The notes under the pieces are model-generated. The model made no database searches. It was not told the origin of the DNA and saw only the letters and a list, made by a program, of their open reading frames with translations. From Blattamonas nauphoetae (taxonomy: Eukaryota; Preaxostyla; Oxymonadida): a DNA stretch of 64,000 bases. Below, in pieces: positions 1,165 to 51,709 of this stretch (position 1 is the stretch's first letter; each line of letters opens with the position of its first letter). A program made the position numbers and the translations under genes. Where the stretch lies: contig JARBJD010000086.1 of assembly GCA_033064195.1 (NCBI GenBank), positions 1 to 64,000 of the forward strand. The letters are read 5' to 3'.

Positions 1165-3086
<1,922 letters not shown>

Positions 3087-7499: not shown

Positions 7500-7542
7500 T
7501 TACTACAAAATAAAAAATCAGAAAATAAAAAAAGTTGAGCGT

Positions 7543-7932
7543 TTATTTCTGTTTTCTCAGATGGGGCTTTTTCTTAGCGGTCAGCCATGCATCAAGTCTA
7601 ATTCTGAACACTTCACTTCCGCCAATCTCTCGATATGTGAATGGAACCAGAACTTTAGTGTACTCACCGACGAGTTCACAATTGTATTTCTTCAGTTCAT
7701 TTTCAACGAATGATTGAGTATAGTGTCGACGTTTCGCAATGTGAGGTCTGTTTCCTTGATTCCACAACTTTGGTTTTATTCTCCATTCAACTCCCTCATG
7801 AACATACGTCACCGGCACATTATTTCTGACATACTCAGAGACTAGTGAACAGTTCTCTTCTCTCATTGATTCAATTAATGCTTGTTCTGAACATACTCGA
7901 CGTCTTTCCTTGTACATCGCAGTTGGATTCAT
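7543..7932 (-). CDS. Small Polinton protein with two degenerate beta repeats
   Basis: A 129-aa protein with two copies of a roughly 60-residue unit: a helix, then ENC.L..EY, a strand ending in EGVEW or a similar turn, and W..G.RPH or similar. It is a paralogue of the larger protein at 9,643. The unit resembles DUF723-type or treble-clef-associated repeats seen in giant-virus proteins, minus the zinc cysteines; that resemblance is from recall. The function is unknown. The start sits in TTTGTATTAAATG, a context shared by the other genes of the element. Confidence 0.6.
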   Translation of the reverse strand: MNPTAMYKERRRVCSEQALIESMREENCSLVSEYVRNNVPVTYVHEGVEWRIKPKLWNQGNRPHIAKRRHYTQSFVENELKKYNCELVGEYTKVLVPFTYREIGGSEVFRIRLDAWLTAKKKPHLRKQK

Positions 7933-12726: not shown

Positions 12727-13412
12727 TGGGTTGGGGAGAGGCAGAGGGGAGTGGGAGGGTGTGGGGGGTGAGAGATAGGCAGAGGGAGTGGGAGGGTGTG
12801 GGTAGTGAGGGAGATGCAGAGGGAGTGGGAGGGTGTGGATGGTGAGGGAGAGGCAGAGGGGAGTGGGAGGGTGAGGGTAGTGAGGGAGATGCAGAGGAGT
12901 GGGAGGGTGTGGGTGGTGAGGGAGAGGGAGAGGAGTGGGAGGGTGTGGGTGGTGAGGGAGAGGCAGAGGGGAGTGGGAGGGTGTGGATGGTGAGGGAGAG
13001 GCAGAGGAGTGGGAGGGTGTGGTGGTGAGGGAGATGCAGAGGGAGTGGGAGGGTGTGGATGGTGAGGGAGAGGCAGAGGGAGTGGGAGGGTGTGGATGGT
13101 GAGGGAGAGGCAGAGGGAGTGGGAGGGTGTGGGTGGTGAGGGAGAGGGAGAGGGAGTGGGAGGGTGTGGGTGGTGAGGGGAGAGGGAGAGGGAGTGGGAG
13201 GGTGTGGGTGGTGAGGGAGAGGCAGAGGGGAGTGGGAGGTGTGGATGGTGAGGGAGAGGCAGAGGGGAGTGGGAGGGTGTGGGTGGTGAGGCAGAGGCAG
13301 AGGGGAGTGGGAGGGTGTGGGTGGTGAGGGAGAGGCAGAGGGGAGTGGGAGGGTGTGGGTGGTGATGGGAGAGGCAGAGGGGAGTGGGAGGGTGTGGGTG
13401 GTGAGGGAGAAT
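12727..13412 (+). repeat. G-rich minisatellite, unit about 38 bp
   Basis: About 17-18 units built from GAGTGGGAGGGTGTGGGTGG and TGAGGGAGAGGCAGAGGG with small unit-length changes. The strand is strongly G-rich with many G-runs, so it could form G-quadruplexes. The same repeat occurs inverted at 30,752-31,329. It starts directly beyond the 3' flank of family gene A. Long proline/serine/histidine-rich frames on the other strand are artefacts. Confidence 0.97.
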
Positions 13413-15944: not shown

Positions 15945-18090
15945 ATGACATCCAAACTGGAATGTATCATCCCTCCTGGATGTTTGTCCTTTCTAAAATG
16001 ATCTCAGCTTTTTCTCTTCATTCATCCCTTTCTTCTTTGTGATTCAGACACAAACGCGAAAAGGATCAGCGAAGGAGCATTTGGACAAGTCCTGAAAGTG
16101 ACTCATGAACGGAGTGGGGTTGACTATGCGGTGAAGGTGCTGCCGGTGCTGAAAGAAGAAGACAAGGAACGAGTTTCTCGTCAAGTTGAGATGTTGACTC
16201 GTTTTGCTCATCCTCGGATAGTTGGTCTTCATGAATCGATTGACATGGGAGGATACCAGGCGATTGTGATGGAGCTTGGATGTGTTTTTAGTTGACGGTG
16301 ATGATTCTGTCTGACATTTGCGAGGGACTTTTGTGGATGCACACCCACTCGTCGGGATCGACAGCTCATGGAGATATTAAGCCGGAGAATGTTCTCTTCC
16401 ACCCAAACAATCGGGCATTTCTGTGTTTGTTCGATTTTTGATTTCTTTTATACGTCATTTTCTGACATCAGGTGATCTCGGTGGTTCAGCCGCCTTCGAA
16501 CAACACTTAACTCAAAGGACAGGAGAATTTGGGACATTCGAGTACAACTCACCGGAGCGCGTGATGGACAGCAATGGAACAGCAACGCCAGCGAATGATG
16601 TTTGGTCGCTTGGAGTACTGGCGTATCGAATGGTAACTGGACGAGGGCTGTTCGATGAATTAACCCTCCCACAGCTGTGTCTCGCATTGGGCCTGTTTTC
16701 TGAATCCAAAATCCCAACCACGATTCCTGCGGCTGTGAGAGGAGTTCTCGTGAAGATGTTGGAACCGGTCTGTTCTCTTTCTTGCTCACCAACTCTTTCT
16801 TTTTTTCGTGTTTTGAACTGATTCTCTCAGAATGCGGCACTTCGAGCAACAACGACGGCTCTTTTGGAAGGAGGTCTTTTGGAGGGAATGCTTGGGGCCG
16901 AAACAGCTCTGTCGAAAATGATGTCGATTCAGCTTGCGACCGGAGTGAACGAGATGAAGGAATTGCTGAATGATGCGAGAGTGAAGGAGAAGACGATGGA
17001 ACTGGAGACGGAAAAGGCGAAACTGCTAAAAGAGACGATAGAATTGGAACACCAACTCACCGCCACACACACCTCACCAATCTCGATCGACCATGAAGTC
17101 AATATCCTCTCAACGAAACATGAAATGCCCCCACTTCAAGGAGACAAAGTGGTGATGGAGGTAAATCCACAATCGACACCAGATATCACTCGCTTCTATC
17201 CGAATGACGACGACTTTACAGACTGGACTGATGACGACAATTCTGAAAACGAACCATCAACTGGATCACCATCGAATGAGACCATCAACAATGAGTTCGA
17301 TCTGATAGTGAAGATCGGAATCGCTGGTGACAAGTACCATTTGAGTGTCTATCCACACAACACCATCATCCAAATCAAAGAAAGGCTCGCTTCTTTCGTG
17401 GGTCAATCAATCGATGACATCTCTCTCATGTACGGTCCGGATTTGCTGAGTGATTCTACAACTCTGTCGAAAATCGACTTTTGTGAGAATCACACCATGA
17501 TCGCTTTCATCAACACTGACGAACAACCATCGACTCAATCCCGATCGAAGGAGAACGTCAATGATGCGTTCAGTCTGATGGTGGAGAACACATCAACTGG
17601 TGACCAGTACAATTTGAATGTGGTTCCATTCAACACCATTCTCGAAATCAAACTAAGACTCGGTCATTATGTTGATGTATGGTATAGAGAAATCTCTCTC
17701 TTGTTCGAGGCTGAAGAACTGAAAGATTACAAAACTTTGTCAGAGATCAACTTCAATGGTCATTTCGTCCTACATCTCTCCATCAACAAACCTAACGACC
17801 AAATCGATGTCACGGCTCATGATGCCAACACTGACGAACAACCCTCGACTGGATCACCATCAAAGGAAGGCAATACACACCACACACCAACCACAGCCTC
17901 TTCATCGACATCGAAAGTGCCTCAGAAACCAAATCCACTCCCAGTGAAAGTGGCCGCTCGAGACCATCCTGCTTACCAGCCGTTCTTTGCGAGACTGAAG
18001 GGTGGAAAAAAGGCTGTGTTCATGGCACCGGAAATGAGGGAGAAAGGGCTGAATCCTGACGCTTTATCAGATCCAGACATGCTCGTGTAA
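15945..18090 (+). CDS. Protein kinase with two ubiquitin-like domains, probably damaged
   Basis: Exons read as 15,945-15,981, 16,048 to about 16,280, 16,292-16,424, 16,472-16,767 and 16,831-18,090, with introns of 66, 47 and 63 nt. The kinase has a Gly loop (SEGAFGQV), YAVKVL Lys, HGDIKPEN catalytic loop, DLG in place of DFG, and SPE. A short coiled coil follows, then two beta-grasp ubiquitin-like repeats of about 75 residues (FDLIVKIGIAGDKYHL and FSLMVENTSTGDQYNL) separated by DEQPST linkers. Compared with the paralogue at 51.7 kb, about 25 residues after VMELG and most of an intron are missing, leaving only about 10 nt. So it is a pseudogene, or the assembly lacks a piece. Tyr/Ser specificity is not readable. 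Confidence 0.8.
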
Positions 18091-18885: not shown

Positions 18886-20577
18886 CTAACTAGAACTCAT
18901 GAGAAGGCCGTGTTCCCGTAAGGGCAGCCACCAGCTGAATGCGAGTTTCGGTGCTTCAGTTCCAATCATAATCGGAGCTGAGTAGAATCGGTCTGCTGTT
19001 GTTGATGTGAGAGACCAGCCCACGTGACTGTTGACGATCTCAAGCGGAACTTTCGCCACTCGCCTGAGGTGGCTCACCGCTGCGTGCTTTATGGTGTATG
19101 GTCCGTAATGACCAGGGACACCGATCTCTCTCAGAACGACTTTCAGCATTGATGCGAGGGCTGGCATCTTCAATGGAATCCCTCTTCTGAAATCAAACCA
19201 TACCTTTGAATTCTCAAAATCTGCCTCCATCCGACCTGAGTGGGCTCTCTCACAATTTGCTTTGTGTGTCTGAAGAGCTTTGAATGCTGAGAATGATTCG
19301 TCACCTTCATCTCGAACGAATCTCATCTCGTCTTCCAGCTGGTTCTGTTTAGCTCTGATTGAAATCGTTGCGAACGATGTCGGGATTAAAGTTGACGCTT
19401 CGTGGAAAACTATATCCCTCCATCGGAGATTAGCAACCTCTGCACGACGGCAGCAAGTCGACGCGAGAATGAGAGCCAATGTTCTCGTTTGCTGAAGTTC
19501 CGCATCATCGCGAGCGACCTCCTGGGTACTCTGCGCCCAACGGAGGAGTAAATCAATATTCCAAATCGAACGATAATGCTTGTTTGACTTGGCCTTTGGG
19601 TGAGTTTTTGAGAGAACTTGTCTGAATGATTGTAGATGAGTATGTTCGTCGTGAAGAGACGGGTGGAAGAGGCCCAATGATCTCACAACTTTAGGAACTG
19701 CCGTATGAGGGAGTTGGTTCGGAGGTGGGAACCGTTCTGCAAGGTCGGCAACAAAACTGCACATAATCTGATCGATGTTTGTTGACTTGGCTACAATGAA
19801 GGAAACGGAATGATTGAACTTTTCACAGAACTGTTTAAAGAGCTTCCAAGCCCGCATCCAAGGGCCCTTGTGTTTGTAAGCGTTCTCTTCATGGGTTCGG
19901 ACATTCATTGGGATTCTGCCTTCATCGCACAGTCTTCTGAAATAATCTCTTCCCTCAATGTTCTCTCTCCCACTAAACAAGCTCGAACCATCCCTGGGGG
20001 TAGGCTCGCTTCTGTCGATGCATCTGTGTGTTTTATCATCGTCGAGTACGGACCCAGTATCATTGAGTCGGTTTCGATTGCTCTGAGTGTCGATGTCCAA
20101 CATTGATTCTTCCAATCCGGGACGATCAACACTCCCAAGATCACTTTCTCGTTCTTCAGTTTCTTCAGAACTCGGGGAAGCAGAAGAATCGGAGGATGTA
20201 TGAGAGGTTGTATCATCCCTGTCCAGTTGACGACGAGGGAGTCTTTTCCAGCTGCTTCTTGTTCCACGCAATGCGAGTAGAATGTTCGACATTGTTTGTT
20301 TCGAGATGTCGCGAACAGATCGATCAGCGGAACGTAGGACCATCGTTCGTTCAACAGTTGTAGAGCTTGCGGTGTTAGCATGTACTCCGCTTGTGGATGG
20401 AGTCTGGACAGAGCATCGGCAGTCGTGTTCAATTGTCCCGGTATGTATTGGATGTCCGCTAGCTTCATTCCGCTTTTCTCGATTGTATCCAGCGTCTGCT
20501 TGGTGATCTGGGCAAGAGATGAGGTTGCTTTCTGATTCTTCACATTTTGGACGGCTGTTGTATGTCGCTGTGGACAA
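18886..20577 (-). CDS. DIRS tyrosine recombinase
   Basis: The C-terminal half holds the recombinase fold: a first catalytic Arg in the TCCRRAEVANLRW block, YTIKHAAVSHLRR (the H-x-x-R box), VGWSLTSTTADRFY with the candidate tyrosine near the end. The N-terminal third is serine-rich and overlaps the RNase H region in another frame, as is normal in this family. In DIRS elements the enzyme inserts the circular DNA without a target duplication, which fits the clean junctions here. The frame looks whole. Confidence 0.88.
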   Translation of the reverse strand: MSTATYNSRPKCEESESNLISCPDHQADAGYNREKRNEASGHPIHTGTIEHDCRCSVQTPSTSGVHANTASSTTVERTMVLRSADRSVRDISKQTMSNILLALRGTRSSWKRLPRRQLDRDDTTSHTSSDSSASPSSEETEERESDLGSVDRPGLEESMLDIDTQSNRNRLNDTGSVLDDDKTHRCIDRSEPTPRDGSSLFSGRENIEGRDYFRRLCDEGRIPMNVRTHEENAYKHKGPWMRAWKLFKQFCEKFNHSVSFIVAKSTNIDQIMCSFVADLAERFPPPNQLPHTAVPKVVRSLGLFHPSLHDEHTHLQSFRQVLSKTHPKAKSNKHYRSIWNIDLLLRWAQSTQEVARDDAELQQTRTLALILASTCCRRAEVANLRWRDIVFHEASTLIPTSFATISIRAKQNQLEDEMRFVRDEGDESFSAFKALQTHKANCERAHSGRMEADFENSKVWFDFRRGIPLKMPALASMLKVVLREIGVPGHYGPYTIKHAAVSHLRRVAKVPLEIVNSHVGWSLTSTTADRFYSAPIMIGTEAPKLAFSWWLPLREHGLLMSSS

Positions 20578-21718
20578 TGAATGCTTGAGTTTGTTTCTGT
20601 TTCAATAGAGGAGTCGCCTTGAGGATTGAGAAACGTATTGCGGCTGTTTCTTTCCAATTGGACGTTTGGAGTTTCTGTTGTTCCGTCCAGATTCCGTGGA
20701 AGAGTGATCTCTCTTCTCCAATCATGACTACACATCCCCAACCCCACGGACTTGCGTCTGTTGTCAGAGATGCCGAGGACGTGACATGTTTGAAGGAGCG
20801 AGGTATGTTCTGTCGAATCGCACAAGTCCAGAACGTCAATTCCCCCAGGTGGAGACGGTTGAGCTGAACATTCGCTTCCCATCCTCTCTGTCTCATGCAC
20901 ATGTCCTTCCACTGGTTCAATTGTTGTAAATGTAGACTCGCCGATGGAATGACAGCCCGAAGGAAGTTGAGCTGACCAATGATTGATGCCAAATCTCTCA
21001 CCCGAATCTCCTGTTGATGAAGGATGACAGCTTTTGCCATCCGTAATTGATTGAGAAGCTTGGACCGTCGAGAGGTGGTGATTGAGATTGACTGTGAGAC
21101 GGAGTTGATGGTCCATCCCAAGAATTCGATTGTTTGGGATGGAATGATGTGACATTTGTCGACAGCGATCTGAAAGCCCAGTTCGGTCAACATCTTGATC
21201 GCTTGTTTTGTTTTGGCGCTCGCTTCCTCCTCGGATGGTGAGATAAGAAGGATATCGTCCAAGTAGAAAATAATCGGTATCTGGAGTGTTTGTCGGATGT
21301 TCTTGATGGCAACCCGCATAATCTTTGTAAAAGTCCGAGGCGCGGTCGATAAGCCGAACGGCATTCCGACATATTGGTAGTATTGATCGTTGAATCTGAA
21401 ACAGAGATACTTCCTGAGTTGTTGAGGGACAATCACATGCTGGTATGCATTCTTCAAATCGATTGTTGTCATCCACTCCCCCCCGTGGATGAACTGCACC
21501 GCCGTGTTGACATCCTCCATTTTGAAATGCTCCACCTTCAGTTCGTTGTTCAGTGGGGTTGCATTCAAGATCTTCCTCCACTTCCCTCCTGGTTTCGGGA
21601 CCAGGAAGGTGTGGAGGGAGAGTACGACATCCGTTCGTGACACTGGAGTCACCACTCCCGACTTCAATTCCTCCTCCAGGAGGTTTTTTGAATGCTTGTG
21701 TCTCCTCCTGGTTCCCAC
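20000..21718 (-). pseudogene. DIRS reverse transcriptase and RNase H region
   Basis: RT motifs are plain: FLVPKPGGKWRKI, TIDLKNAYQHV, MPFGLSTAPRTF and the catalytic FYLDDILL, then the thumb and an RNase H start (TTDASPWGWGC). A later RNase H part carries IPGQLNTTADALSR, a typical DIRS/Gypsy-group RNase H end. The region looks broken at about one place. It copies element RNA in an intact relative. Confidence 0.85.
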
Positions 21719-21880
21719 GGAAAGGAAGAGACCAGGGGAGCTCTTGCAATTTCTGGGGAGATTGTGGGCTTATCCACTCCCACATCGCCCCCGCCAGGAT
21801 CCTCTCCTTCCCCCCTATCTGCTCCCATTTTGTTAAAGAATTCATCAACCTTTCTGGAACTGGTCGATTGGAAGATTCTG

Positions 21881-30192: not shown

Positions 30193-30751
30193 ATTTTCAA
30201 TTGAAACAGACAAGAACCAGCGACTCTTTCGAACTGATTCGGCCTGCTTTTGGGCAACAACCACTGTTTGTGTGATCTTTGTCGACTCTGGCATCACCTC
30301 ATGGCCTCGTTTGTCGAACGATTGGGATTCTCTCTCGCCAGTCTCGCTCGATGGTCGCCACACTCTTCTTCTCCTTCGCAGCCACTCTCGCGCTTCCGAA
30401 GACGATTCGGAAAGGTCAGGAGCTGTCGTCGCTCAGTTCACGGCCATTCTCGATTCCCGCTCTCTCACTGCTCGTTTCTGAAAGATTATGTATCAGCGGA
30501 TGGATGGTGACAGTCGGTGGGAGCTTGTGTTTGCGTGATTGTTTGGTAATTATTCTCCAAAACGTTTTTCTCTTGATTGATTGCATTGATGAGAATGACC
30601 ATCAACAACAAACTGTTTTGAATTCAAGTCATTCTGGATCTCTCACGCTCACCAGCTGACACTTCCAACGCCTATTCGGAGGGATCGAACAATGAGCTCG
30701 CAAAAAAGATGACCGTTCTCGATCCTTACTCCGTCACCCCCACGCCTTCCC
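30193..30751. other. Displaced 3' flank of gene D
   Basis: 30,200-30,375 is the family 3' flank (GAAACAGACAAGAACCAGCG onward), pushed 860 bp away from its gene by the TIR element. No gene. Confidence 0.6.
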
Positions 30752-31329
30752 ATTCCCCTCTGCCTCTCCCTCACCACCCACACCCTCTCACTCCCCTCTG
30801 CCTCTCCCTCCCCATTCACACCCTCCCACTCCCCTCTGCCTCTCCCTCACCACCCACACCCTCCCACTCCCCTCTGCCTCTCCCTCACCACCCACACCCT
30901 CCCACTCCCCTCTGCCTCTCCCTCACCACCCACACCCTCCCACTCCCCTCTGCCTCTCCCTCACCACCCACACCCTCTCACTCCCCTCTGCCTCTCCCTC
31001 ACCACTCACACCCTCCCACTCCCCTCTGCCTCTCCCTCACCACCCACACCCTCCCACTCCCCTCTGCCTCCCTCACCACCCACACCTCTCACTCCCCTCT
31101 GCCTCTCCCCTCACCGCCCACACCCCCCCCTCTGCCTCTCCCTCACCACCCACACCCTCCCACTCCCCTCTGCCTCTCCCTCACCACCCACACCCTCCCA
31201 CTCCCCTCTGCCTCTCCCTCACCACCCACACCCTCCCACTCCCCTCTGCCTCTCCCCTCACCACCCACACCCTCCCACTCCCCTCTGCCTCTCCCTCACC
31301 ACCCACACCCTCCCACTCCCCTCTGCCTC
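30752..31329 (+). repeat. C-rich minisatellite, unit about 38 bp, inverse of the 12.7-kb array
   Basis: About 15 units built from CTCCCTCACCACCCACACCC and TCCCACTCCCCTCTGCCT. Same unit as the array downstream of gene A, in the same orientation relative to the family gene. Flanks on the far side also match (GATGGTGGC and CGAAGCAC blocks). Confidence 0.97.
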
Positions 31330-34512: not shown

Positions 34513-37500
34513 ATGAGGTTCTTTCTGGTCCTTGTTCTGCCGGGTCTCACCACAGACGTTCAAATACACCTGGCTGCATCACATCAGAATGTGGAACAGT
34601 TACCAGATTTGGAGCAGTTCATCACCATTCACCAAAAGAAGATCGTCAATTCTCCCACACAAAGCATCCGAACGCCGAATCAAGTTTTCACAGGATCGAA
34701 CATCGAAGTGGCATCTCAAACCCTGTCATTGTTTGGAGACACGACCACCATCCTCTGTCGTCCGGATGGACTTGGCTCGCATGCACGTCCTGCCCAAGAA
34801 AATACAACCAATTCACATCCGAACCATGATTCTCCCACAACCATCTTTTCCGTTCGGAACAGCTCGCTGTCACTCCATAACCTGGCCCTGTCTGTCTCTG
34901 ACATGACACAGACAATCTGTTCTGTTTTAGAGTCTTCAATACTTGTCCAAAACTGTGAAATTACATCATCGACGACCATTTCGCCATTTTTGGCTTTGCA
35001 AAATCCATATTCTGCACCGATCTCGATTACAATCATCTCGACGTTCCACAGGACCACAAGTTGTGGAATTGTCCAACCCCATGTGAGTTTTTCGTCTTCC
35101 AACTTTCAAACTTCCTCCAACGATAAAGAACTTGAAATTATTGATGGGGGAATTTCTGTCTCCGGCATCGGACTGCATTTTGAGGACTCCGAGTTACTTC
35201 ATTCGTCTGGACCTCTCTTCTCGTTCCATACCATCTCACCCGAAACTGGCACCAAAATTGGTCGAATCCGGACATTTCTTTCGCACACAACGTTGGTGAA
35301 TGTGACGACCACTCCGCATCGTCCACACTTTGTGAATCTCGCCTCGATGTCTCAGACAGTCAGCGGCTGTGATGTGGATGAATGCATGAACCACTTTTCG
35401 GGAACAGCAGTTCACGAAATCAATTTTGGAGGATCCACGCTTTGCGCAAACTCCTCGTTCGCGAACTGCCACTCGACAACTCTCCTCGCCTCTCCTCGTA
35501 CTTCCGAAGCGACTCCAAACGAAGATGTGGAGTACACAGATGAAGACTACGAGAATAGTGTCGGTCAAATCCTCAGCCCAGTCACTTCCACCGAATACAG
35601 AGTGATTGTCGTTCGATGCACTTTTTGCGATATGACATCAACATTCGGAGCTGCAATATTCATCTACAATAAGACAGTCCAACTCAGTGTGTCTTCATCC
35701 TCCTTTGCTCGGTGTCGAACGAATGTGGGGAGCGATGGAGATGGTGGAGCGATCTATGTTAGCCAAGCATCAATTTCTCCCGATCATCCTGGCATCTCCT
35801 CCATCGATAAATGTAGTTTCTCCGATTGTTCAGCAACCGATGCTGGTGGTTCTGCGTGTCTCTGCAAGACCAACAAACAAGTCACCGACTCTTATTTCGA
35901 AGACTCTTCAGCGAAGCGTGGGGGTGGACTCTTCTTCGAGGATGCCCACGTCACAATCTCGAATGTCTCTTTCATTGCATGCCATGCAAGTCGTGCAGGA
36001 GGTCTGCACTATTCGTGGTGGCTGACAGCTTCTTACACAGCCAGTCTTAGTGTCAGTTCAGTCAGTTACAGAGATTGTTACGCAACTGAATACCTTGATT
36101 CACGAGACTTCTTCACAGGTGCAGCTGTCACGGCTATTCTAACAACAGACGAAATGAAAGACTGCGATTCTTCGTCCGGTTTGGACAACACTTGGTCATT
36201 CTACTTGAACAAACCGCATGACCGATCACTGATTCCGCTGGTCGAGAAGGGGACGACGATTGTTGGGAAGAGCGTGACAGTTGCAGGCAACGTGGCGACG
36301 ATCGAAGTGGAGACGGAGAAGAAGATGAGTGGGACAATGGCAGTTCTTTTGAGTGGACCAGCAGTGCCCCGTTTGGTGTTCATCGAGTTTGCTGACTCGA
36401 CAATTGGGAGTGGAACAGCGGCAGTTGGATCAGGACAGATTCTGCCAGCTGACACAGACTTTGAAGTGAAGTCAGTTGTGATGCCTGGATGGACATTCGA
36501 CAATTTCGTCTTTGGCGGATCGAGTACTCTTCTGGATGCGAACACGACTGAACTGACGCTGAATGGAGTTGGGCTTCGAGAGGGAAACTATTGGATGCTA
36601 ATCTGGGATGGATCATCGTCATCGTCGGAAGTTGAGGTGTCGCTGACTCTTTCTGGAACAACGACGCTGACGGGAAGAGCACCGCTCTATCCATCGACAG
36701 CAGTTGGACTCGTTGGGTGGGGGACGAAGTACAGAGTGATCGAAGTTGGTCGAGAGTTGAAAGGAGAGAAACGGACGATTGTTGTGAACGGTACAGTTGA
36801 GTTCACGACACCAGTGGAACCAGCTCGAATTGAAGAAGCGAGATGTTCTCTGAATGGAAGAAAGGACGAAGTGATTGTTTGTCTTGTTGGGAGACAGCTG
36901 AGTGATGGAAATCATTTACTTTTTCTTCGTCACTCTGGAATTGAAATGCCAATGAACACCGAGATCTTCAATGTGAGTGAGACCCGCTTCTTCGCGAAGT
37001 TTGGAGTTGGATGGAAGGATAACAAGACGCATCTGGAGTATGGAGCGGAATATGAAATCTTCACCGTGACGAACGGGACATCTTCGTTTGACACATCAGC
37101 TCAGCCGATGTTTATTGTTCCTCAGCCTCCGCTGATCTTGTCGATCGATGTTCCTCAGTCTGTCTCTTCGTCATCGTTTGTGTTTGCTGTGACAGGTAGT
37201 GATCTTCCTTCTGGAAAGACTTATTTGGTTTCACTGTCTTCGGGGCATTCGTTCTCTCTCACATTCACCTCAACAACTGAAGGATGCTCGACAGTACCGA
37301 TTGGTGGAAGCGAAGATGTGAAATTTGGGACAGACGACAAAATGACTTCCGTGATTCTTGTGGAAGCAGGAAAGGAATGGGAATTTGTCCTGTTCAACGC
37401 AACATCCTTCACCACCCCGGCAGGACCTACTCTTTCTTTGATTTCTTGTGATTTCGCTCCATCTGACCTGAACAGTGTGATTCTGTCGCTTACCACTCGT

Positions 37501-40500
37501 CTGATGCCTTCCGAGACATTCACTCTTCGCTTGTCATTGACATTGACTCCATCGAAGACTGTGGATGTTCCAATCTCATTCACATCAGCCGACTCTGGAA
37601 TAGCAAAAGTTGAAGTGTACAACACATCGGATTCACTTGAATATGGTTGCTCGTATTCGATTGTTGAGATGTGGAGTGAGAATGTTGTGGCAGTTGTGAA
37701 TGCACCAGCGTTCTCACTGCCTCCCTCTCCCGTGAGGATTGAAGGGGCGTCGTGTTCGCTTGGAGGAGAGAAGAATCAGTCAGCGATTGTTCTTCTGTCT
37801 GGAGTGAAATTGGGAGGAGGTAAGAAGTTCAATTTGACAGTCCAGAAGATGATTGGATCGACACCGTCTTCGCCTAACATCGTTCTGTCTGGAACACTGA
37901 CTGGAAATGGATTATCGACAACTCATTCGCATTGTGAATTGATTTTCGGTGAATCGCCTCCTCTCCTCTCTTTTGGGACGACGTATCTGTTGACAGATTT
38001 CGCTGTGGAATCCTCGATTTGTGTTATGAATTCAGGACTCAATTTCACTGTGCCGTTGGAACCGAGTAGGTTGATAGAATTGGACGAAGATGTGAAATAT
38101 GGATCGGGGGACAAGACAATTGAGGTGTCATTGTCTGGGATTGGTCTGGATGGAGAATACGAAGTGATCTTCTCTGTGAATGGAAGTGAGACAGCCATAG
38201 TCGCACTGAATGCGACATTCGACTCGAGTAGCAAAGGAAAGCTGAAAGGAACACTTTTCGATACGTGCTCGCCTTCTCTCGTTGACTTGTCGTACAGCAC
38301 GAATTATTCTGTGATCGGAGTGAGTTTCGGGTCGATACCGATTCTTTTCGAAGATGGATTGTCGTTCAAGACAATTGCTGAACCCTCTCGTCTTGTTCGA
38401 ATTGAAGCGAGTGAGTTTGTTGATTCTCTGAAGACGACGATCAAGCTGTCGTTCTCTTCAGTTGCCCTTCCAATCAAAAACACTGTGACACTGACATTGG
38501 AATCAGATGATTTGGGTGCGACAAGCTCTGATGATCGCGTTCTGATGATAGAAACCGACGAGAATGGTCAATTGAAATTGATATCAGCGAAACTGAATCC
38601 ATTTGAGACAGACTCGTTTAAGAAATCAAGTCAACTGGAGTTTGGTCGGAACTACAAAGTGAAATCGTTGTCGACCACGTCGTTTGGATTGATTCACTTT
38701 GAGAAAGAAGAGACGAGATTCATCACTCCATCTGAACCATCGCGAATTGTTGGGGTTGTGGAAGTGGAACAGTCCAATGTGAACAAGATTGAACTGAAAC
38801 TGAAAGGAAGAATGATGTCAGCAGGCCAGGTGACGATCACGTTGAAGAACTCCCAATCGAGCAAGCGGACAGTGTCATTCGCTGGAGGGCAAGACTCAGA
38901 TGAATCGACATCGTTTTCATTTTTGTTGTTTGGAGAAGACAAAGAACTGGAGTATGGAACTCGATACGATGTCGTCTCTGTTGTCTCAACAGTAACCTCA
39001 CAACCGATTCTTATGGACGAGGATGTGGGCTTCTCAACGTCAACCGAGCCGTTCCGAATTGTGGATGGAGAAGCGACACTGAACTCGCAGCGAACTCGAG
39101 TGATCATGAGACTGTCCGGGCGCTGCATTCCTGACTCGTCGTTCAATGTTATTCTGAACGATGGAAGGACGAACAGTGAAGTGGTAGTTGGGGGTCGAAA
39201 GGAAGAAGGAGAGATTGTGATGGAAGGATGTGTGGATGGGAGCGAATTACCTCGATTGGTTTGTGGTGTGACATATTTCGTGACTCGAGTTGAGAAAGTT
39301 GGAGGTGAAGTTGGGAGTGAACTCTCGGCAGTGATTGAGGAAGGAGTGAATGTGACTATTCCGTTCCCTCCGAAAGTGTTGAGTGGTCGATTTGTGAATG
39401 TGTCGTCGCTTTGGACAGAAGCGGAGCTGGAATTGACTGGAGAATGGCTGGATCTTCGTGGTGTATTCGAAGTGTGTCTGAACAACACGATGACGATCGA
39501 TGCTCTGTTCACTGATGCGAGTTCTGGCGGATCCGTATCGTCTTTCCGATTTGGAAGGAAGGGCGAGTTGGAGTTTGGGAAAAGCTATTCACTTGAATGG
39601 ATCCGGAAGAAAGGAGATCCGAATGAGATTGTTGTTTGTGATGGAGTGACTCTCGCAGCGATTGCCAAACCGGAGTTATTTGTGATTCATTCAGACGAAT
39701 CATCGCTGGACACATCTGATTTCTGTGGAACGAAAGAGAAGGCATGTCATTCGATTTCAGATGTGTTCCGAATTGTGCGTGGGATTGGCTTCTCTCAGAT
39801 TGAGGTAATTCTTGACACTCTGAGTGAGATTGGCGAAGGGATTGACTTAAACGGAGGATCATTGAGTTTCGAGCGTGGAGGGATTGGGGAACCAATGCTT
39901 CTTGTTCCTTCATCGGCAGAGTCGTCGTTTGATGAAACGCCTGGTTCAGGACTGATTCATGTGGGTGGAGGGATGTTCGAACTTCGTGATGTGGATGTGA
40001 ACATTTCGGTGTCATCGTCGTCGTTCGTGTTTGTGTCGGTTGTGGATGGGACGTTGATGATCAGAGACAGTTCGCTCTTCCTCTCGTCGTCACCCTCTTC
40101 TCATCAGTCCATTTCGAAGGAATCTCTCTGCAGTTGGAAGAGTGGAGTGATCTCCGTTTTGAACACATCGACTCAGATTTCTCGAACAGTTCTGCATTCG
40201 CTGTGGTTTGGTGGGATTTCGATGAGAGGAGGGAACATGACAGTGGAAAGCACGACATTCCGAGACAACTCGCCTGGCGATTCTGAGTTCCCATCTTGTC
40301 GGCAAAACATTGCCTGTTCGGAAGGAGGAGAGATTGTGATTGGGAGTCTGAATGGAGGAGATGGGTCCACTGAAGGATCGTCGTCGTGGATTTCGGCGTT
40401 GGACTGTTCTGTGAAGTCGTCAGTTGTGTCTGAGTCGTCTCCGCTGTTCATCCCGTCACTTTTGTCGTCGTCATCTTCCGTGTCTCTCCGAAAGAAGGAG

Positions 40501-42045
40501 AAATCGTTTGTGTTCGATCTTGTTGGGACGGAACTAATTCCTTGTGGTCTTTCTATTTTGGTGTTTGAGTTTGATGGAAAGACGAACCGAACTGGGAATT
40601 GGGTTGAATTCTCATCAGATTCTTTATCGGTGTCGAAATGGAATGAATCGAACGTGATCTTTACACTTCCTCAATCGTCTCTTGCAAAGCTGGACAGTTC
40701 GATGGAATGGCGCAGTCATTTTGTGTTTGGATCGAACGAATCGACATCAGCGGTTGTTGTTCAGATGAGTTTGTCAGACAAACGAGCTCAGAATGCCGTG
40801 AAGTCGCTTGTTTGGGTAATTCCTGTGATCTGTTCTGTAGTTGCTCTTCTGATTGTGATCTTCGTTGTGGTTCTTTGTTGTCGAAAGAAGACGAAAGGGA
40901 AGAAAGAACAGAAAGAGATGAAATCAGAGCCCGATGAAATGGACGACGAAAAATACGAAGTTGAAGACACACTTGGAGAATCGTCAGTTGGAGCAATTCG
41001 AAACAACACAGCGGAAGGGCAGATGCAGAAAGACAAGTCGGACGAGAAGACGTCGGAGATTGGGAGAGGAGTGGGAGGAGGTGAGATGGTGTGTGTGATG
41101 GCGTGTGAGGGAGAGTTCAAGACAGAAATGAGACCTCGTTGCGAGACGCTGTTCTCTCGACTTCACAAACAGAGTTCCGGAACGAGTGGAATGAGCAGGG
41201 CGGAGAAGGGAGCGATTCTGGCGAAGATTGTTCGTGGCTTGCGGATGGCTGGACAGTCGAATGTGACGAACTGGATTCTGACGAACGTGTCTCCTCACAA
41301 CATTTCGATTGATGGATCGGACAGAGTGTTCCTGAAGATGAAAGAACCTGAACTAAGCCATCCCCAAGCTGGAATTCCTGTTGTTCTTCCTTCTCACGAA
41401 CAACAGATCGAGAGACCTGAAATATGTCCGGCGACCGAACAAGGCAAGTTGGGAATCGGAGAGAGTGGGGCTGGGAACCAATCACTTCTTCCGTCTGACG
41501 CGACTGTTGATCGAGCGCACTCGTCGAACATGGCTTCGATTCTTCCTCAGAACGATTCATTTTTTCGTGGCCTCGAAGGAATGAAAGGAGTGAGTGGAAT
41601 GCGTGGATTGAATGGAATGACAACAGAAAATGGAGTTCGAAGAGACGGAGGATCTGGAATCACATTGGAAGGATCCTCGCTGCTGAATGAGAAGTCGAAC
41701 GAAGATGTGCGCTGGGCGTCACCAGAAACAACAGACAAGCTGGCAGTTGTGGACCAAGAGAAGGCGGCAGTGTTCAGTCTTGGGATTCTGCTATGGGAGA
41801 TGGAGACGGAGGCAGTGCCGTTTGGGGAGCTGGATGGGATGAACGCGCATCGTCAACTGGGAACAGGTGCTGAACTTGATATGACGAAAGTGTCATCGTC
41901 GCAAGCTGAAGTGATCCGACAGTGCATGCGACTGAATCCAGTTGAGCGTCCTTCGCTTTCGACAGTGGCGTCGCTTCTTGGGATCTCGCTTTTGGACTCG
42001 ACGAAAGAAGAGACAGAACAGACAGTTGCTCACATCACAAATTGA
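34513..42045 (+). CDS. Large receptor-like protein: beta-helix, about nine beta repeats, TM, kinase-like tail (2,510 aa)
   Basis: Short hydrophobic start (MRFFLVLVLPGLTT) fitting a signal peptide. Residues about 50-530 are Ser/Thr/Asn-rich with Cys and short beta strands typical of pectin-lyase-like helices (GGAIYVSQAS, RGGGLFFEDAHVTIS). About 530-1700 hold repeats of 110-120 residues ending L.YGT.Y.V..V and starting PSRI or a variant. About 1700-2090 are a second beta-helix-like part. One TM segment lies near 2097-2122 (WVIPVICSVVALLIVIFVVV), then basic KK. The cytoplasmic tail has a TKL-like C-lobe (WASPETTDK, FSLGILLWEMETEAVPFGEL, RLNPVERPSLSTV), but the catalytic loop reads NVSPHNISID with no HRD Asp and there is no DFG. 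I infer a pseudokinase receptor. Confidence 0.85.
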   Translation: MRFFLVLVLPGLTTDVQIHLAASHQNVEQLPDLEQFITIHQKKIVNSPTQSIRTPNQVFTGSNIEVASQTLSLFGDTTTILCRPDGLGSHARPAQENTTNSHPNHDSPTTIFSVRNSSLSLHNLALSVSDMTQTICSVLESSILVQNCEITSSTTISPFLALQNPYSAPISITIISTFHRTTSCGIVQPHVSFSSSNFQTSSNDKELEIIDGGISVSGIGLHFEDSELLHSSGPLFSFHTISPETGTKIGRIRTFLSHTTLVNVTTTPHRPHFVNLASMSQTVSGCDVDECMNHFSGTAVHEINFGGSTLCANSSFANCHSTTLLASPRTSEATPNEDVEYTDEDYENSVGQILSPVTSTEYRVIVVRCTFCDMTSTFGAAIFIYNKTVQLSVSSSSFARCRTNVGSDGDGGAIYVSQASISPDHPGISSIDKCSFSDCSATDAGGSACLCKTNKQVTDSYFEDSSAKRGGGLFFEDAHVTISNVSFIACHASRAGGLHYSWWLTASYTASLSVSSVSYRDCYATEYLDSRDFFTGAAVTAILTTDEMKDCDSSSGLDNTWSFYLNKPHDRSLIPLVEKGTTIVGKSVTVAGNVATIEVETEKKMSGTMAVLLSGPAVPRLVFIEFADSTIGSGTAAVGSGQILPADTDFEVKSVVMPGWTFDNFVFGGSSTLLDANTTELTLNGVGLREGNYWMLIWDGSSSSSEVEVSLTLSGTTTLTGRAPLYPSTAVGLVGWGTKYRVIEVGRELKGEKRTIVVNGTVEFTTPVEPARIEEARCSLNGRKDEVIVCLVGRQLSDGNHLLFLRHSGIEMPMNTEIFNVSETRFFAKFGVGWKDNKTHLEYGAEYEIFTVTNGTSSFDTSAQPMFIVPQPPLILSIDVPQSVSSSSFVFAVTGSDLPSGKTYLVSLSSGHSFSLTFTSTTEGCSTVPIGGSEDVKFGTDDKMTSVILVEAGKEWEFVLFNATSFTTPAGPTLSLISCDFAPSDLNSVILSLTTRLMPSETFTLRLSLTLTPSKTVDVPISFTSADSGIAKVEVYNTSDSLEYGCSYSIVEMWSENVVAVVNAPAFSLPPSPVRIEGASCSLGGEKNQSAIVLLSGVKLGGGKKFNLTVQKMIGSTPSSPNIVLSGTLTGNGLSTTHSHCELIFGESPPLLSFGTTYLLTDFAVESSICVMNSGLNFTVPLEPSRLIELDEDVKYGSGDKTIEVSLSGIGLDGEYEVIFSVNGSETAIVALNATFDSSSKGKLKGTLFDTCSPSLVDLSYSTNYSVIGVSFGSIPILFEDGLSFKTIAEPSRLVRIEASEFVDSLKTTIKLSFSSVALPIKNTVTLTLESDDLGATSSDDRVLMIETDENGQLKLISAKLNPFETDSFKKSSQLEFGRNYKVKSLSTTSFGLIHFEKEETRFITPSEPSRIVGVVEVEQSNVNKIELKLKGRMMSAGQVTITLKNSQSSKRTVSFAGGQDSDESTSFSFLLFGEDKELEYGTRYDVVSVVSTVTSQPILMDEDVGFSTSTEPFRIVDGEATLNSQRTRVIMRLSGRCIPDSSFNVILNDGRTNSEVVVGGRKEEGEIVMEGCVDGSELPRLVCGVTYFVTRVEKVGGEVGSELSAVIEEGVNVTIPFPPKVLSGRFVNVSSLWTEAELELTGEWLDLRGVFEVCLNNTMTIDALFTDASSGGSVSSFRFGRKGELEFGKSYSLEWIRKKGDPNEIVVCDGVTLAAIAKPELFVIHSDESSLDTSDFCGTKEKACHSISDVFRIVRGIGFSQIEVILDTLSEIGEGIDLNGGSLSFERGGIGEPMLLVPSSAESSFDETPGSGLIHVGGGMFELRDVDVNISVSSSSFVFVSVVDGTLMIRDSSLFLSSSPSSHQSISKESLCSWKSGVISVLNTSTQISRTVLHSLWFGGISMRGGNMTVESTTFRDNSPGDSEFPSCRQNIACSEGGEIVIGSLNGGDGSTEGSSSWISALDCSVKSSVVSESSPLFIPSLLSSSSSVSLRKKEKSFVFDLVGTELIPCGLSILVFEFDGKTNRTGNWVEFSSDSLSVSKWNESNVIFTLPQSSLAKLDSSMEWRSHFVFGSNESTSAVVVQMSLSDKRAQNAVKSLVWVIPVICSVVALLIVIFVVVLCCRKKTKGKKEQKEMKSEPDEMDDEKYEVEDTLGESSVGAIRNNTAEGQMQKDKSDEKTSEIGRGVGGGEMVCVMACEGEFKTEMRPRCETLFSRLHKQSSGTSGMSRAEKGAILAKIVRGLRMAGQSNVTNWILTNVSPHNISIDGSDRVFLKMKEPELSHPQAGIPVVLPSHEQQIERPEICPATEQGKLGIGESGAGNQSLLPSDATVDRAHSSNMASILPQNDSFFRGLEGMKGVSGMRGLNGMTTENGVRRDGGSGITLEGSSLLNEKSNEDVRWASPETTDKLAVVDQEKAAVFSLGILLWEMETEAVPFGELDGMNAHRQLGTGAELDMTKVSSSQAEVIRQCMRLNPVERPSLSTVASLLGISLLDSTKEETEQTVAHITN

Positions 42046-45207: not shown

Positions 45208-48200
45208 TCAGCATGAGGCGGATTCGAGGGAGAGAGAATGTGGAGGAAGATCCCTGTTCGATCGCAGTTCACAAACACAAGGAGAAGATGAGCTCATCTG
45301 AAAACAGTGAAAATAAAGCAAGCAAACTGAGAGTGTGTGTGGGAACAAGACCTTTTCTTTGATTGTGTGAGATTCTTTGTTTATTTTGAACACGATCTCA
45401 TCACGTCGGACTGTCAGCGTGATCTTTGAAAAAGGTGTCATCACTCTTTTGAGGCGGTCTGGAGTTGGGGTGGACTTTCCATTGAAGGTGATGGTTCTTG
45501 GGGTGATTTTGATAGTGTCTGTCTTGCGTTTCATTTCGAATCGAAAAGCGACATCGAAGGGGGATCGATCGGGACGCTTGAGGTGGCAAGAAACTTCATA
45601 CTCACTTTGGTGATTTGTCTGGGGGTTTTTCTGTCTATCATTGTCTGGGCAATCGACGACAAACCTGTTTATCAGTTCTCTCTTCTGAGGAGAAGGCGAT
45701 CGGTTTGGGGATTCGTTCGGAGATCGCAAATGAGAAGGTGGAGTATGTATGGAAAGTGTCGAGGGATCGTGCGGGTGAGGTGTTTGCATTGCGATGATCG
45801 CCTGATCGGTTGGATTCCTGTGAAAGGTGGAGATGTCTGAAGGTGTGTTTGGTGCTTTCCTGAGTGGGGTGAGAAGCCTGTAATTCTGTTCTGACTGTTG
45901 TGTGTCTGGAATGTAGAAGGTATGTGGGGGTGGCTTGGGGACTGGGGAATGAAGAGAAGGAATCACAAACAGGATCCAGAAGTGACCTGTGCAAACGTAC
46001 TCCACGTCACCCCGCTCCTGGCATCTTCCTCGAACTGCTTGAAGAATGGGAGTTCGAGGGCTTCCCTGGCTGATGGTCTTTGAGCCGGTGATTTGGACAG
46101 AAGAGCGTTGATGGCGTCTGTGCAGTGTTGGGAGAGATCACGTCGAGTGATATTGTGTACGTTGTGTTGGATGGACATGTACAGCTGATGTGTCGAGGTC
46201 CCTTCGAACGGGTATCTGCGAGAGTGATGAAAAGCAGAGCAAACGAGCGACAGAGAAGAATAAACAGCATGACTCCGATGGCCCAGATGTCAGATTTGTG
46301 TGAATAACGAGGTGAAAGATAGACAATCTCGGGTGCGAGGTAGACAGGAGTTCTGAGAGCAGAGAAGAAAGGGTGTCAGAAAATGAGAGGGTACCCCACG
46401 ACGTCCATTGACAAAGGAGCTTCTGAGTCTGAGATTAGCAAATCATATTCTGCAACTTGTACGAAAACCGAGTCATCTCCATCAAAAGGGAGAAAGATGT
46501 TTTCTAGTTTCAAATCTCTGAAGTCGATGTTTTGTGAAAAAAAACACAAACCGATGAAGGAATCCATGGTCTGAGAACTCCGCAATACAGAGTACTACAT
46601 TTAATGATCGAAGAGAGAAATTTGTACAGACAGATTTGGCGGATGAAAATTCCAACGATGTTTTCCGGAAGTGGAGGAAGTCTGCCATCGATCAAACGAT
46701 TCAAGGCCTACAAATTGTGAAATTGTGGTTCGAAGTCAAACTGGCAGGTTGGCGTAATCCATCATCAGAATTGAGTGACCTTCAATTTGTGTTGTGAGTC
46801 GAATTCGAATATAGAATGGATTTTTGATCCCTTTTCTACAAAAATGAAAAAAGATGGAGCCTGCATACTCGAAAAAGGTCGCAGCATGTCTCTGTCCCCC
46901 TTCGATGTCCTGACCACGCGATAAGATTTTCATTGCCGCCAATCCTCCCTGACATTCAACAAGATCGACACTAGAGCACATAAAAGCCTGAAAATAATCC
47001 AAACGTTCCAGAGGCTCCTTGTCCAGATGGATAGTTCTTGGATGGAGATATGTGGGTTTGACGCATTCCTTCAATGGCGTTTTCGTAAGAAGATTTATGG
47101 GGAGAGTTTGGATATCCTGAATGGTTTGTCAAAGGTGAAGTGAACAGTGGACGTGGGCCCCTGTAGAGTATGGGAGATGTCGGATAGAGATCATCAATTT
47201 TGAGCTTGAACATTGTTTCCTCGTGTTGAGTCTTCATTAGTTGTTCTTGCTTTGATCGCTGTTCATATTCTCTAAGATCTTTCTGATGGCATCGCTCTTG
47301 TGCTTTGATCTGCGATTCAAGAGTTTGATTTCGATTCGAGATGGACGTGTGTTCACGTGGTTGTATCACAAGCTGACGCTTCAGTTCTGAGATCTCTTTG
47401 TTTCTCTTCTCCAGTGTTGAATTGAGAGATTGAATCTGCTGCACGTGTTTGTCATTTTGAGTCTGGGTGAAAGGGGATTGAGGGGCTTGACGTGGATTTA
47501 TCTCCTCTTTGTCTTGATTTCTCTCTCGCTGCAGGCCCTCTCCCCTCCTTTCCACTTGGCGAAGTTGAGACTGGACTTCAGAGAGTTTCGTTCGAAGACT
47601 TTCCGCGTTTTCCTTTTCTGTTTGGAGGTGTCTCTGAATGATTTCGACTTTATTCCTGAGGTCTTCGTTGCTTTTTTTAAGTTGATGCATCTCCAATTGA
47701 TGCTTGGTTTTGTAATCCTCGAATTCTCGCTGGAGCCTCTCTCGTTCTCGTTCTTCTTTCTTCAAGTTCTCAACCATCTTCCGTTGTTCCTCTTCCGACT
47801 GTGCCGCTGTTCGTTGTGCCGTTGTAGTCTGCCTTTTCTGATCTTCCAGTTCTTGTCGGAGTCGATCCATGTCCTTCTCCTTCTCCGCTTTGAGTTCGTT
47901 CACAATTGTGTCAGTATCCTTCTCCAGGGTTTTGAACCGGCTCTCAAATAGATTCCTTTCGTGGGTGAGGGTGTCAAGTGCATTTTTATGATCGTTTTCT
48001 TGTCTTGCCATTTCCTGTTTTGATTCATCCAACTCCTTTCTTCCATGCTCCACTTCCCTCTTTAACACTGCGATCTGGCTATTCGTATCTTCTTTCTCAT
48101 TCTCCAGTCTCCTCCATTTTGCTTCCAAGTCTCGGGATCTGTCATTTGTTTGCTCCAATTGTGCTTTTAAATGGTTCAGTTCTGTTCGATTGTGCCTCAG

Positions 48201-51200
48201 TTCTTCATCTTTCTTGCGATTCATCTCTGCTTCTGCTTTTCTTGCATCTTCACTCTTTTGTAGCTCGTTCTGAAGTGTCCTGATTTGACTCTCGAGCTTT
48301 TGGTTGTCTGGATGAAGTCGAGTGAATCTGTCTTGTGTTGCGTTCAGTGTGCCTTTCTCCAATTGATGCTTTGTTTTGTAATCCTCAAATTCTTGTTGGA
48401 GCCTCTCTCGTTCTCGTTCTTCATTCTTCAAGTTCTCAACCATCTTCCGTCGTTCCTCTTCTGACTGTGCTGATGTTCGTTGGGATGCTGCAGTCTTCCT
48501 TTTCTGATCTTCGAGTTCGCTTCGAACTTCTGCCTTCTCGCACTCCATTTTTCGAAGTTGACGTCGATGATCTTCCCTTTCTTGGATCAGTTGAGATTCT
48601 GTGCGTTGAATCTTGTCCTGCTGCAATTTGATGTCCCTCTCAAACCGAGTCCTTTCGTTTGTGATCTGGTTCTTCAAGTCTGCCATCTCTCTCTCCAGCT
48701 TCGTTGTCTTCGGTTGAGCTTGTTCAGCATTTTTGAGTTTGTCATTCAAAGCCAAGACAGTTTGGTTCAATCGGTTTCTCTCATCTTCGATTGCGTTGTT
48801 TCTGTTCTGGAGGTCGGTGGCTTTCCGTGTAAGATCATCAATCGTTTGTTGACCGTTCGTGTTGTTCTCTTCCGCTCGTCTCAGCTGAGTCTGAAGATGA
48901 TCACATTGTTGCTTCAGAGAAGCAATTTCCGACTGCATTCTGGTTGAGACCGTCTCTTTCATGGCGATCCGGTCAGCATGCGAATTCTGCACGTACACCA
49001 GACTCTTCGCAGAATGGTCGACTTCCCTCCCGTCCACCACTCCACCAAACTGCCCCTCGATGGCTTCGCTCTCCTCCACCTTCCGAATCGTCTCGTCGTT
49101 GCACTCAAACCATTCCCTCGTTCCGAGCGGGCGAATGAACGAGTAGTGATGGCCCAATCTGGGAGTTCCTGAGTGGACTTCCACAGCGAGGAGTGAATAG
49201 CGGAATGACTGCGAATAGAACGACCCGGTCTTCTGCTTGGCCATCCACGCCTGTTCCTTCTCCGGCTCGCCCAGCCCGCTCAGTTCGGAAGAGTAGACAA
49301 GTTGTTGGGCAGCGTGTCTCGGCTCGTTGAAGGCGAGGGATTGTTGGAGTTGAGGTGATTGAGGAGATTGAACAGAGGGAGCTTGTCCTTTCGCTTTCTT
49401 GATCTCTTTCTTCTTTTGGATGGCATTCATCTTCTCTGCGAGTGTGAGTGGCTCGATCAAACGAGCCAAGTCGAGAGAGGTCGGGAAAGCGAATCGTTTG
49501 TTGTTCTTCATCTGTCCTCCCTCACCAGCTCTCCATCTGACGAGATCCACAAAAAGAACAGGAGGGAGGGAGTAGATCTTTTGGGTCTGAGACGGACGAG
49601 AGAATGGAGGACGGGAGAATGAACAGGGTTGCGAATGTCATACGTTTCCGTGTTGATCGGGAAGGAGGAGTTTGGGCAACACGTCTTTCATTCCACGTCC
49701 CAGTTCGACCGGTACTCTGAGGGACCAGAAGTGTTCAGGGTGGACAGACACACTTTTCCGACCGTTCTGTTCAAGTGTTTCCTTGCGGACGAGTCGTCCA
49801 CTGAGGAGAGACGAGACCAGCCCGCGAAGGGGAGTGTTCTGTTTGACATTTTGAAACAGAGACAAAGCTCAATGATTGAAGAACGGCAGACCTTCAGCTC
49901 AGAATTGAGTCCATTGACAAGTCGATAGAAGAAGTCTTGAGTATCGTTCATCTGGCGAACGTCAAATTGGGGAAAGTGGATGGTTTGGGTGAACACACTC
50001 GTGTTGACTGGAGTCTGCGAGTCGAGCATGGCTTGGAAGAGTCTGTGGAGACCGACACGAAGTGGATCCCTTGCGGAGGGTGATGGGGAGAGTGGGAGAG
50101 AAAGGAGAAGCTGAAGAAGAATGACGAAGGGAGATGAGGGTGAGAGAAAGGTGCTCACACATTTCGGAAGAGAGGGATGTGGAAGAGCGACTGGACAACA
50201 ATGTTCAGATAGCATTGGAGACCCGGATTCACCAGTCCCACAAACTTCAGACGAGCTGCTTCTCGCAGAGCAGCTGCGTGTTCAGATTCGGCCAGGTTGT
50301 GCTCGCTTTCTTTGTGCAGTCGCATCTGTTCCATCGGCACAGTCTTTCCGCAGATCTCGCAGACCTGTGCAAGGGGATAATTCTGTCGAGTCGGGAATCG
50401 AGTTCCGTGTGGAATCAGTTGGAACCTGCTTTTGTGAAGTGAAGGACCATTCTCGTCGGCTCTTTGGGCTTGTTCTGCTTCATTCAGCTTCCACATTCCT
50501 TCAAGTGTGTTCACAATGCATCTGAACGACTTGGAGAGTCGCAGCTGGCGACAGGTTATTCGAGATTCTGGACTCTGATCAAAATGATTGAGGAAATGAG
50601 AAAAGGAGGGATGAACAAAAGATAAGAGGAGGAGAGAAAATGAGGGATGACCAAAAGAGAAAAGGAGGAGAGATAAGGGAGATATAATCAAAAGAGATAA
50701 GGGAGAGAGGAAAGGAGAGATGAAGAATTGTGAAATATGGGAAGACTTTGTCCATCATTCGCATCAGCAAGGCTCGTTCGTCTTCTCCGCATAAATTTGG
50801 GATCATTGTCGGTTTGAATGACGTGATCTCTCGAATCAACTGCGCAGGATTCTTCGCTTGGAATGGTGGCTCTCCGAACAGCAGCCAATACAGCACAACT
50901 CCCAACGCCCACATATCTGCCTCGCACGTCGCTTTTCCTGTCTCCGACTCGATCCGTTCCGGTGATACATACATCTGTGACACCACAGAACGAGAGCTGC
51001 TCACATTTTCCGATTCCGCAGCTCCAAAGTCACCTGTTTGAGGAACGAAGATCATGAGAGAAAAGCGAAAAGAATAAGATAGAAAAAAGAGGGAAACAGA
51101 GTTTTGCGTGTCCATCCCTATCAATCAGAATATTATCTAGTTTCACATCTCCATGTGCTGTCTTTCCGCTTTCGTGGTTGTGCATCAATTCCAGTGCTGA

Positions 51201-51709
51201 CGAAATATCCTCCATAACTCGGTATACTTCCTGACAACATCAACACATTAACGATATAAAGACAATAAGCAAACAAAAAATGAAGAGTAGGAAAAAGATC
51301 ACGAATAAAATGTGATTGATAAACACACATCGCGAGGCATCAGAACTTTCCTCTCTGTGAAATCCTTCATGATTTCAGCAAGAGAATGTCCTCCCAGTTC
51401 CATCACCATTACTTTCGTGTTCCCCATCGATGCCAATTCTTTCAATTTCACAATTCGAGGATGGGCGAAAATCTGAAGTCGATTAACTTCACGATCTATT
51501 CGTTCTTTGTCTTTTGTTGTCAAGCATTGCACCATCTTGCCTGCATAGTGGACGTTGGTTGATTTTTCAATCATTTCCACAACCGTTCCAAAACCACCAG
51601 AGTTGATGATGCGAACACATGAATCTGAACAGCAAACACAAACGAAATGCATTCATTAGGAACAAGAACATGACAAACATCCTTCAGGAACTTCGATACC
51701 ATCATCCAT
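45208..51709 (-). CDS. Kinase - zinc finger - ubiquitin-specific protease - coiled coil - kinase-like fusion
   Basis: Start ATG 51,709 (MDDGIEVPEG). Introns read at 51,678-51,625, 51,328-51,231, 51,097-51,034, 50,746-50,575, 50,160-50,111, 49,891-49,839, 49,643-49,587, 47,004-46,971, 46,741-46,708, 46,631-46,595, 46,551-46,518 and 46,394-46,353, with more toward the 3' end; frame is kept across the listed ones. Kinase 1 (residues 10-275): NSGGFGTV, YAGKM, HGDVKLDN, CDFGAAE, SPESRIT. C2H2 finger near 321 (CEICGKTVP). USP: Cys box GLVNPGLQCYLN (Cys near 370), QMNDTQDFFYRL, LPPVLFVDL, His box VHSGTPRLGHHYSFIR (near 672), CNDET. Coiled coil about 740-1320. Kinase 2: SGQGASGTV, AAMKIL, HRDLKLENIF, YLAPEIV, no DFG. 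The C-terminal tail has a beta-rich part. Alternatively two adjacent genes split before kinase 2. Confidence 0.82.

Follow-up and report, generated by a model that had tools for sequence, protein, structure and literature searches.

A Blattamonas nauphoetae gene predicted to join two kinase domains, a deubiquitinase domain and a coiled coil in one chain

Structure of the gene

The stretch of DNA analysed here (64,000 nucleotides, referred to as the window) represents contig C823 of Blattamonas nauphoetae. A spliced frame of 1883 amino acids, assembled from 17 exons separated by 16 GT-AG introns, runs along its minus strand from 51709 to 45208 and comprises, in this order, a kinase domain (K1), a weakly UBZ-like C2H2 finger, a USP domain, a coiled coil, a second kinase domain (K2), a Pro-rich linker and an all-beta C-terminal domain. 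The single frame spliced at GT-AG introns that had been proposed in an initial annotation of the sequence was borne out, with its parts in their expected places. The features are the following.

45208..51709, minus strand: whole gene, a continuous frame after splicing, compared with GenBank model P0121
50518..51709, minus strand: K1, exons 1-5, amino acids 1-268, HGD at 135 and DFG at about 155 (Pkinase, 2.8e-46)
50299..50361, minus strand: C2H2-type finger, C-x2-C-x11-H-x4-H, amino acids 321-341, weakly UBZ-like
48987..50250, minus strand: USP domain, exons 5-8, about amino acids 358-725, with Cys370, His671 and Asn688 (UCH, 5.7e-33)
47202..48986, minus strand: coiled coil, exon 8, about amino acids 726-1320 (from amino-acid composition)
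47022..47201, minus strand: coiled-coil tail, in frame into the Gly loop of K2, matching the C-terminal tail at C824
46971..47004, minus strand: intron 8, 34 nt, within the Gly loop of K2, with an in-frame TAG when retained
46011..47024, minus strand: K2, exons 8-15 (Pkinase, 5.1e-33)
45682..45941, minus strand: Pro-rich linker (PKPPP...), of the kind that joins K2 to the finger in paralogues P0122-P0124
45328..45681, minus strand: C-terminal domain, about 118 amino acids, all-beta in a weak predicted structure

Introns 1-7 measure 50-172 nt and introns 8-16 only 29-42 nt, and retention of nine of the 16 would introduce an in-frame stop. Exon 8 is free of stops in its own frame, whereas its other two frames contain 26 and 36. 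As initially annotated, exons 1-8 taken up to the in-frame TAG of intron 8 add up to a multiple of three (4191 nt, 3 x 1397), and the Gly loop of K2 is formed by the removal of the 34-nt intron 8 (47004..46971). An intron occupies the identical position in all nine K2 copies compared (lengths 32-47 nt), so that support for intron 8 comes from comparison, not from cDNA.

The gene is already deposited in GenBank, as an unremarked kinase. Members of the family are named there ‘putative serine/threonine protein kinase’ or hypothetical protein, and the kinase names conceal the deubiquitinase part. The deposited model of the window gene, P0121 (1305 amino acids), has 1290 of its 1305 residues in common with an earlier version of our spliced model; it presents part of K1, the USP domain, the coiled coil and K2 as a single chain and passes from the coiled coil to K2 across the same 34-nt intron. 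It starts 114 residues later than our model, skips ten residues at intron 4 and 222 in the coiled coil, and does not include the C-terminus. In the region of intron 5 P0121 has 14 residues vs one in our earlier model; our first choice of this intron was dropped because P0121 and the paralogues retain residues like LLLSLPLSPSPSAR there, and the final model adopts the reading of P0121. An end of the protein at VTSGSCL, as in P0121, was likewise abandoned, since P0122-P0126 run on to FPKPP at that point. In nucleotides the 222-residue gap measures 666, and two direct repeats of 163 nt in the coiled-coil region lie that far apart; we considered this gap as a sign of transcript data and rejected the idea; a GC-AG intron is possible there. 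The published assembly comprises 879 contigs (88.5 Mb), gene prediction in it used PASA and EVM together with intron hints from RNA-seq, and the word ‘ubiquitin’ does not occur in the main text of the genome paper (PMC10703272).

Domains of the predicted protein

The complete-looking first kinase of the initial annotation is confirmed by a Pkinase match covering amino acids 13-261 (numbering of the earlier spliced model) and by the presence of HGD and DFG. With this match, the Lys, the catalytic Asp and the DFG motif, K1 would by its sequence count as an active protein kinase, Gly replacing the Arg of HRD. The family to which it belongs is very large, with at least 247 exon matches (136 of 1108 candidates scored), and the closest annotated relative among the matches listed is 77% identical. 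Among the 12 paralogous loci fetched, a K1 match above 70% identity occurs only at L044 (contig C108); weak matches at C490 and C46 (23-30%) coincide with the K2 of these loci. In GenBank models as deposited, K1-type kinases are joined to HECT (P0016 and P0058), RhoGEF, thymidine kinase and LysM domains, the kinase not being N-terminal in the thymidine kinase and LysM models.

The finger shows the C2H2-type pattern that had been noted, and its likeness to UBZ is weak: the zf_UBZ profile is reported for all four fingers of the family and is the best match for two, with E values of 0.0004-0.05, all below the Pfam cut-off. For the USP domain, the UCH profile matches amino acids 361-689 (earlier spliced model) with 115 bits vs a cut-off of 23.9. 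The motifs known in USP enzymes as the Cys box and the His box align with those of USP7, and Cys370, His671 and Asn688 stand in the expected order, in agreement with the ordered boxes initially described. Judged by profile and catalytic residues, the domain is a predicted C19-type deubiquitinase. The profile search suggested with the initial annotation thus recovered both UCH and Pkinase, the latter twice, and a failure of the USP profile was not seen. The coiled coil, put at 580 residues before, spans about 595 by composition.

K2 had been described as a second kinase lobe. The Pkinase match upholds its kinase nature and extends to a whole domain, not one lobe; the Gly loop, the Lys and HRD are retained and the DFG site reads EYD (46450..46442). 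Its nearest solved relatives are NEK1, CDPK and CaMKII. The DFG-type Asp for Mg is absent from K2 of both the window and C108, and on this ground K2 would not count as an active kinase; it is probably an impaired kinase, i.e. a pseudokinase in which the Mg-binding Asp has been replaced by Glu. The predicted model of the C-terminal domain is all-beta with a pLDDT of 54, a comparison of this domain with PDB sequences returned matches at the level of noise, and in the genome contigs it recurs only at C62 and C108.

Paralogues and the origin of the domain order

The genome searched for paralogues comprises 837 contigs (88.3 Mb). The part of the USP domain encoded by exon 8 is 82-88% identical at C108, C62, C824, C490 and C114 and 59% identical at C46, and weaker USP relatives lie at C116:45k and C563. 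K2 is found upstream of the USP domain at seven loci (C62, C824, C490, C114, C46, C116 and C512) and downstream only at C108 and in the window; at C187 and C812 the USP domain occurs with no K2 match. From this distribution we infer that the usual order of the family is K2-linker-finger-USP-coiled coil, and the order K1-USP-coiled coil-K2 looks derived. The position of K2 goes with the state of its DFG site, which reads DYG (six) or DFG (one) in the seven upstream copies and EYD (window) or EFD (C108) in the two downstream ones. GenBank models P0122 (C824), P0123 (C62), P0124 (C490) and P0126 (C46) likewise combine a K2-type kinase, a USP domain and a long coiled coil, the first three also having the finger; they differ from the window gene in the upstream position of K2, the DYG motif and the lack of K1. 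The chain of P0123 ends in the C-terminal domain.

The locus on C108 (L044, P0125) resembles the window in its order K1-USP-coiled coil-K2, in the altered motif of K2 (EFD) and in a remnant of the C-terminal domain, and in the GenBank models of both loci a single chain spans the USP domain, coiled coil and K2. The two loci are nevertheless not identical in order, because C108 has no finger between K1 and the USP domain and carries a transposon in intron 4; their junctions between coiled coil and K2 differ as well. The intron, about 1.7 kb long, contains an uninterrupted 363-residue frame (L044:7561-8649, minus strand) with a DDE_3 transposase match (1.2e-06), which we take to be mariner-like, and P0125 begins downstream of this frame. 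Elsewhere on the same contig, USP fragments of about 77% identity occur apart from the other domains (C108:104873-105695 and C108:125690-126001).

At C62, C824, C114 and C46 K2 begins with a short start exon. At C108 this exon stands in frame after the coiled coil, with CTG where C62 has ATG. In the window the start exon has no good match (best E value 0.17); here the tail of the coiled coil, which over 66 residues shares 76% identity with that of C824, passes into the Gly loop around TCTGGACAAGGA. Given junctions so unlike, the rearrangement may represent two events, or the junctions may have been altered by conversion. A tree of the nine K2 copies, without C187 and C812, separates the window and C108 from the other seven (ultrafast bootstrap 97%). 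The USP tree has little resolution, and C108 groups there with C62 (71), not with the window; cassette exchange or gene conversion would explain this conflict. In each tree, no close paralogue has a branch as long as that of the window (0.12 for K2, 0.10 for the USP domain). A likely history, as read from these sequences, is that a new kinase was captured while the old one moved and became a pseudokinase.

Selection on the parts of the gene

Substitutions between the window and C108 were counted on exons of the earlier spliced model, with E1, E12 and E17 left unscored. In K1 (E2-E4) the differences amount to 23.4 among 158 synonymous sites and 29.6 among 553 nonsynonymous sites (dN/dS about 0.34; Fisher p 4e-4), in the USP domain (E6, E7 and part of E8) to 51 among 229 and 47 among 767 (dN/dS 0.24; p 3e-11), and in K2 (E9-E11 and E13-E15) to 37 among 170 and 43 among 560 (dN/dS about 0.31; p 2e-6), the scored exons of all three being free of stops and gaps. 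By these counts K1, the USP domain and K2 are under purifying selection between the two loci, a single exon of K2 (E11) having a dN/dS of 0.99 on four changes. Values are higher in E5, which includes the linker and finger (0.63, from 60 of its 138 codons, the finger being absent from C108), in the coiled coil (0.59) and in the C-terminal domain (0.67, with gaps), so these parts appear to be loosely constrained.

Proposed working of the protein and alternative explanations

The architecture K1-finger-USP-coiled coil-K2 is, at the level of sequence, well supported. We consider it rather probable that the locus holds a single gene for K1, finger, USP domain, coiled coil, pseudokinase K2, linker and beta domain, in which K1 was captured, K2 was displaced, and K1 gates or directs the USP domain. 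In the lineage shared by the window and C108, the N-terminus would have passed to a kinase that is unrelated to K2 and comes from a large family, and the old kinase, now C-terminal to the coiled coil, has Glu in place of its Mg-binding Asp. The coiled coil would self-associate; upon a signal, K1 would phosphorylate the chain or bound partners, and the USP domain would thereby be gated or directed, with the finger helping to hold ubiquitin and K2 serving as a binding or allosteric domain. The protein would thus most likely be a deubiquitinase assembled through its coiled coil and gated or directed by K1, the old kinase persisting as a regulatory domain.

It is conceivable that the locus holds two genes, one for K1, USP domain and coiled coil and one for a kinase downstream, which gene prediction alone has fused. 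K2 does begin its own gene elsewhere in the family, the Gly loop is preceded by an in-frame Met at a distance of about 13 residues, and introns are 50-172 nt long ahead of the junction but 29-42 nt long beyond it. Yet the paralogues, too, typically have short introns in the Gly loop of K2, a search of the window did not turn up the start exon of K2, and C108 has the same join with ATG replaced by CTG. Moreover, the first stop beyond the coiled coil is the TAG inside intron 8, past the start of the Gly loop, so two genes would have to overlap. We regard this explanation as highly improbable; the continuous frame, the order at C108, the conserved intron position and the GenBank models all favour the one gene with this domain order that was initially annotated.

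Granted a single gene, its working product might comprise only K1, finger, USP domain and coiled coil, with K2 as a passive passenger skipped whenever intron 8 is retained. The in-frame TAG of the retained intron and the loss of the DFG Asp fit such an arrangement, but the dN/dS of K2, the Gly-loop intron kept in nine of nine copies and the splicing of intron 8 in the GenBank model speak against it, and we deem it unlikely. That the whole is a non-functional, decaying chimera of tandem paralogues, or a misassembly, seems quite improbable to us. The long branch of the window in both trees, the loose constraint outside the enzymatic domains and the lone USP fragments at C108:104-105k and C108:125k could all be read as decay; against it stand the frame left open across 17 exons, the dN/dS of 0.24-0.34 in the three enzyme-like domains and the order K1-USP-coiled coil-K2 common to two contigs. 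As for misassembly, the published assembly was polished with both Nanopore and Illumina reads (PMC10703272).

Relation to known proteins

Among solved structures, USP7/HAUSP is the best relative of the USP domain (1.8e-19). In USP7 the USP domain is preceded by a TRAF domain and followed by ubiquitin-like domains; the window protein has kinases and a coiled coil instead, and with no Pfam match to a TRAF or ubiquitin-like domain it falls outside the USP7 subfamily. The Blattamonas models P0016 and P0058 also unite a K1-type kinase and a ubiquitin enzyme in one chain, but theirs is a ligase, which adds ubiquitin, whereas that of the window is a deubiquitinase. The Dictyostelium kinase/NEDD4-like E3 mentioned in a review of bifunctional kinases (PMC9138534) similarly pairs a kinase with a ligase, not a deubiquitinase, and the string ‘deubiquitin’ does not occur in the text of that review.

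A search of proteins of about 900-2870 amino acids (7993 candidates scored) retrieved ten with UCH, six of which, all from Blattamonas, also have Pkinase, the other four having no kinase; UCH was absent from the best 120 of 323 and the best 120 of 578 further matches. The initial remark that no protein with this order had been described agrees with the literature searched, in which we found no described kinase-USP protein among the papers listed; most subscription papers lay outside its scope.

The window protein is a variant of known kinase-enzyme fusions. A more far-reaching idea, which we put forward tentatively and consider possible rather than probable, is a family of kinase-deubiquitinases in two generations, in which a captured kinase drives the enzyme and the ancestral one acts as a C-terminal pseudokinase regulator, both the addition (HECT) and the removal of ubiquitin being under the control of a kinase in cis. 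The phosphorylation that controls deubiquitinases is generally ascribed to separate proteins; the chain described here, if real, would couple phosphorylation and deubiquitination in cis. The paralogues also form a natural series, from a kinase before the USP domain with DYG, through the addition of a new kinase, to the old kinase moved and altered, and could be useful for understanding how kinase domains are swapped and how pseudokinases arise.

Other features of the window

The first 11,000 nucleotides (1-11000) have a G+C content of 0.35-0.40 vs mostly 0.42-0.56 elsewhere in the window, and contain a 1412-residue frame without a Pfam match. On the plus strand, a 422-residue frame (16822-18090) includes two ubiquitin-family stretches (3.3e-14), and a 2510-residue open frame (34513-42045) ends in a kinase-like C-lobe preceded by a TMEM154-like stretch below the cut-off, so its product is possibly receptor-like. 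In two satellite arrays with units of 37-38 nt (12734-13410 and 30729-31329; 18 and 16 copies), the unit of one array is nearly the reverse complement of the unit of the other. Finally, an RVT_1 match (3.6e-27) at 18886-21769 on the minus strand adjoins a tyrosine-recombinase-like match below the cut-off (2.9e-05), and we presume that the two perhaps belong to a DIRS-type retroelement.
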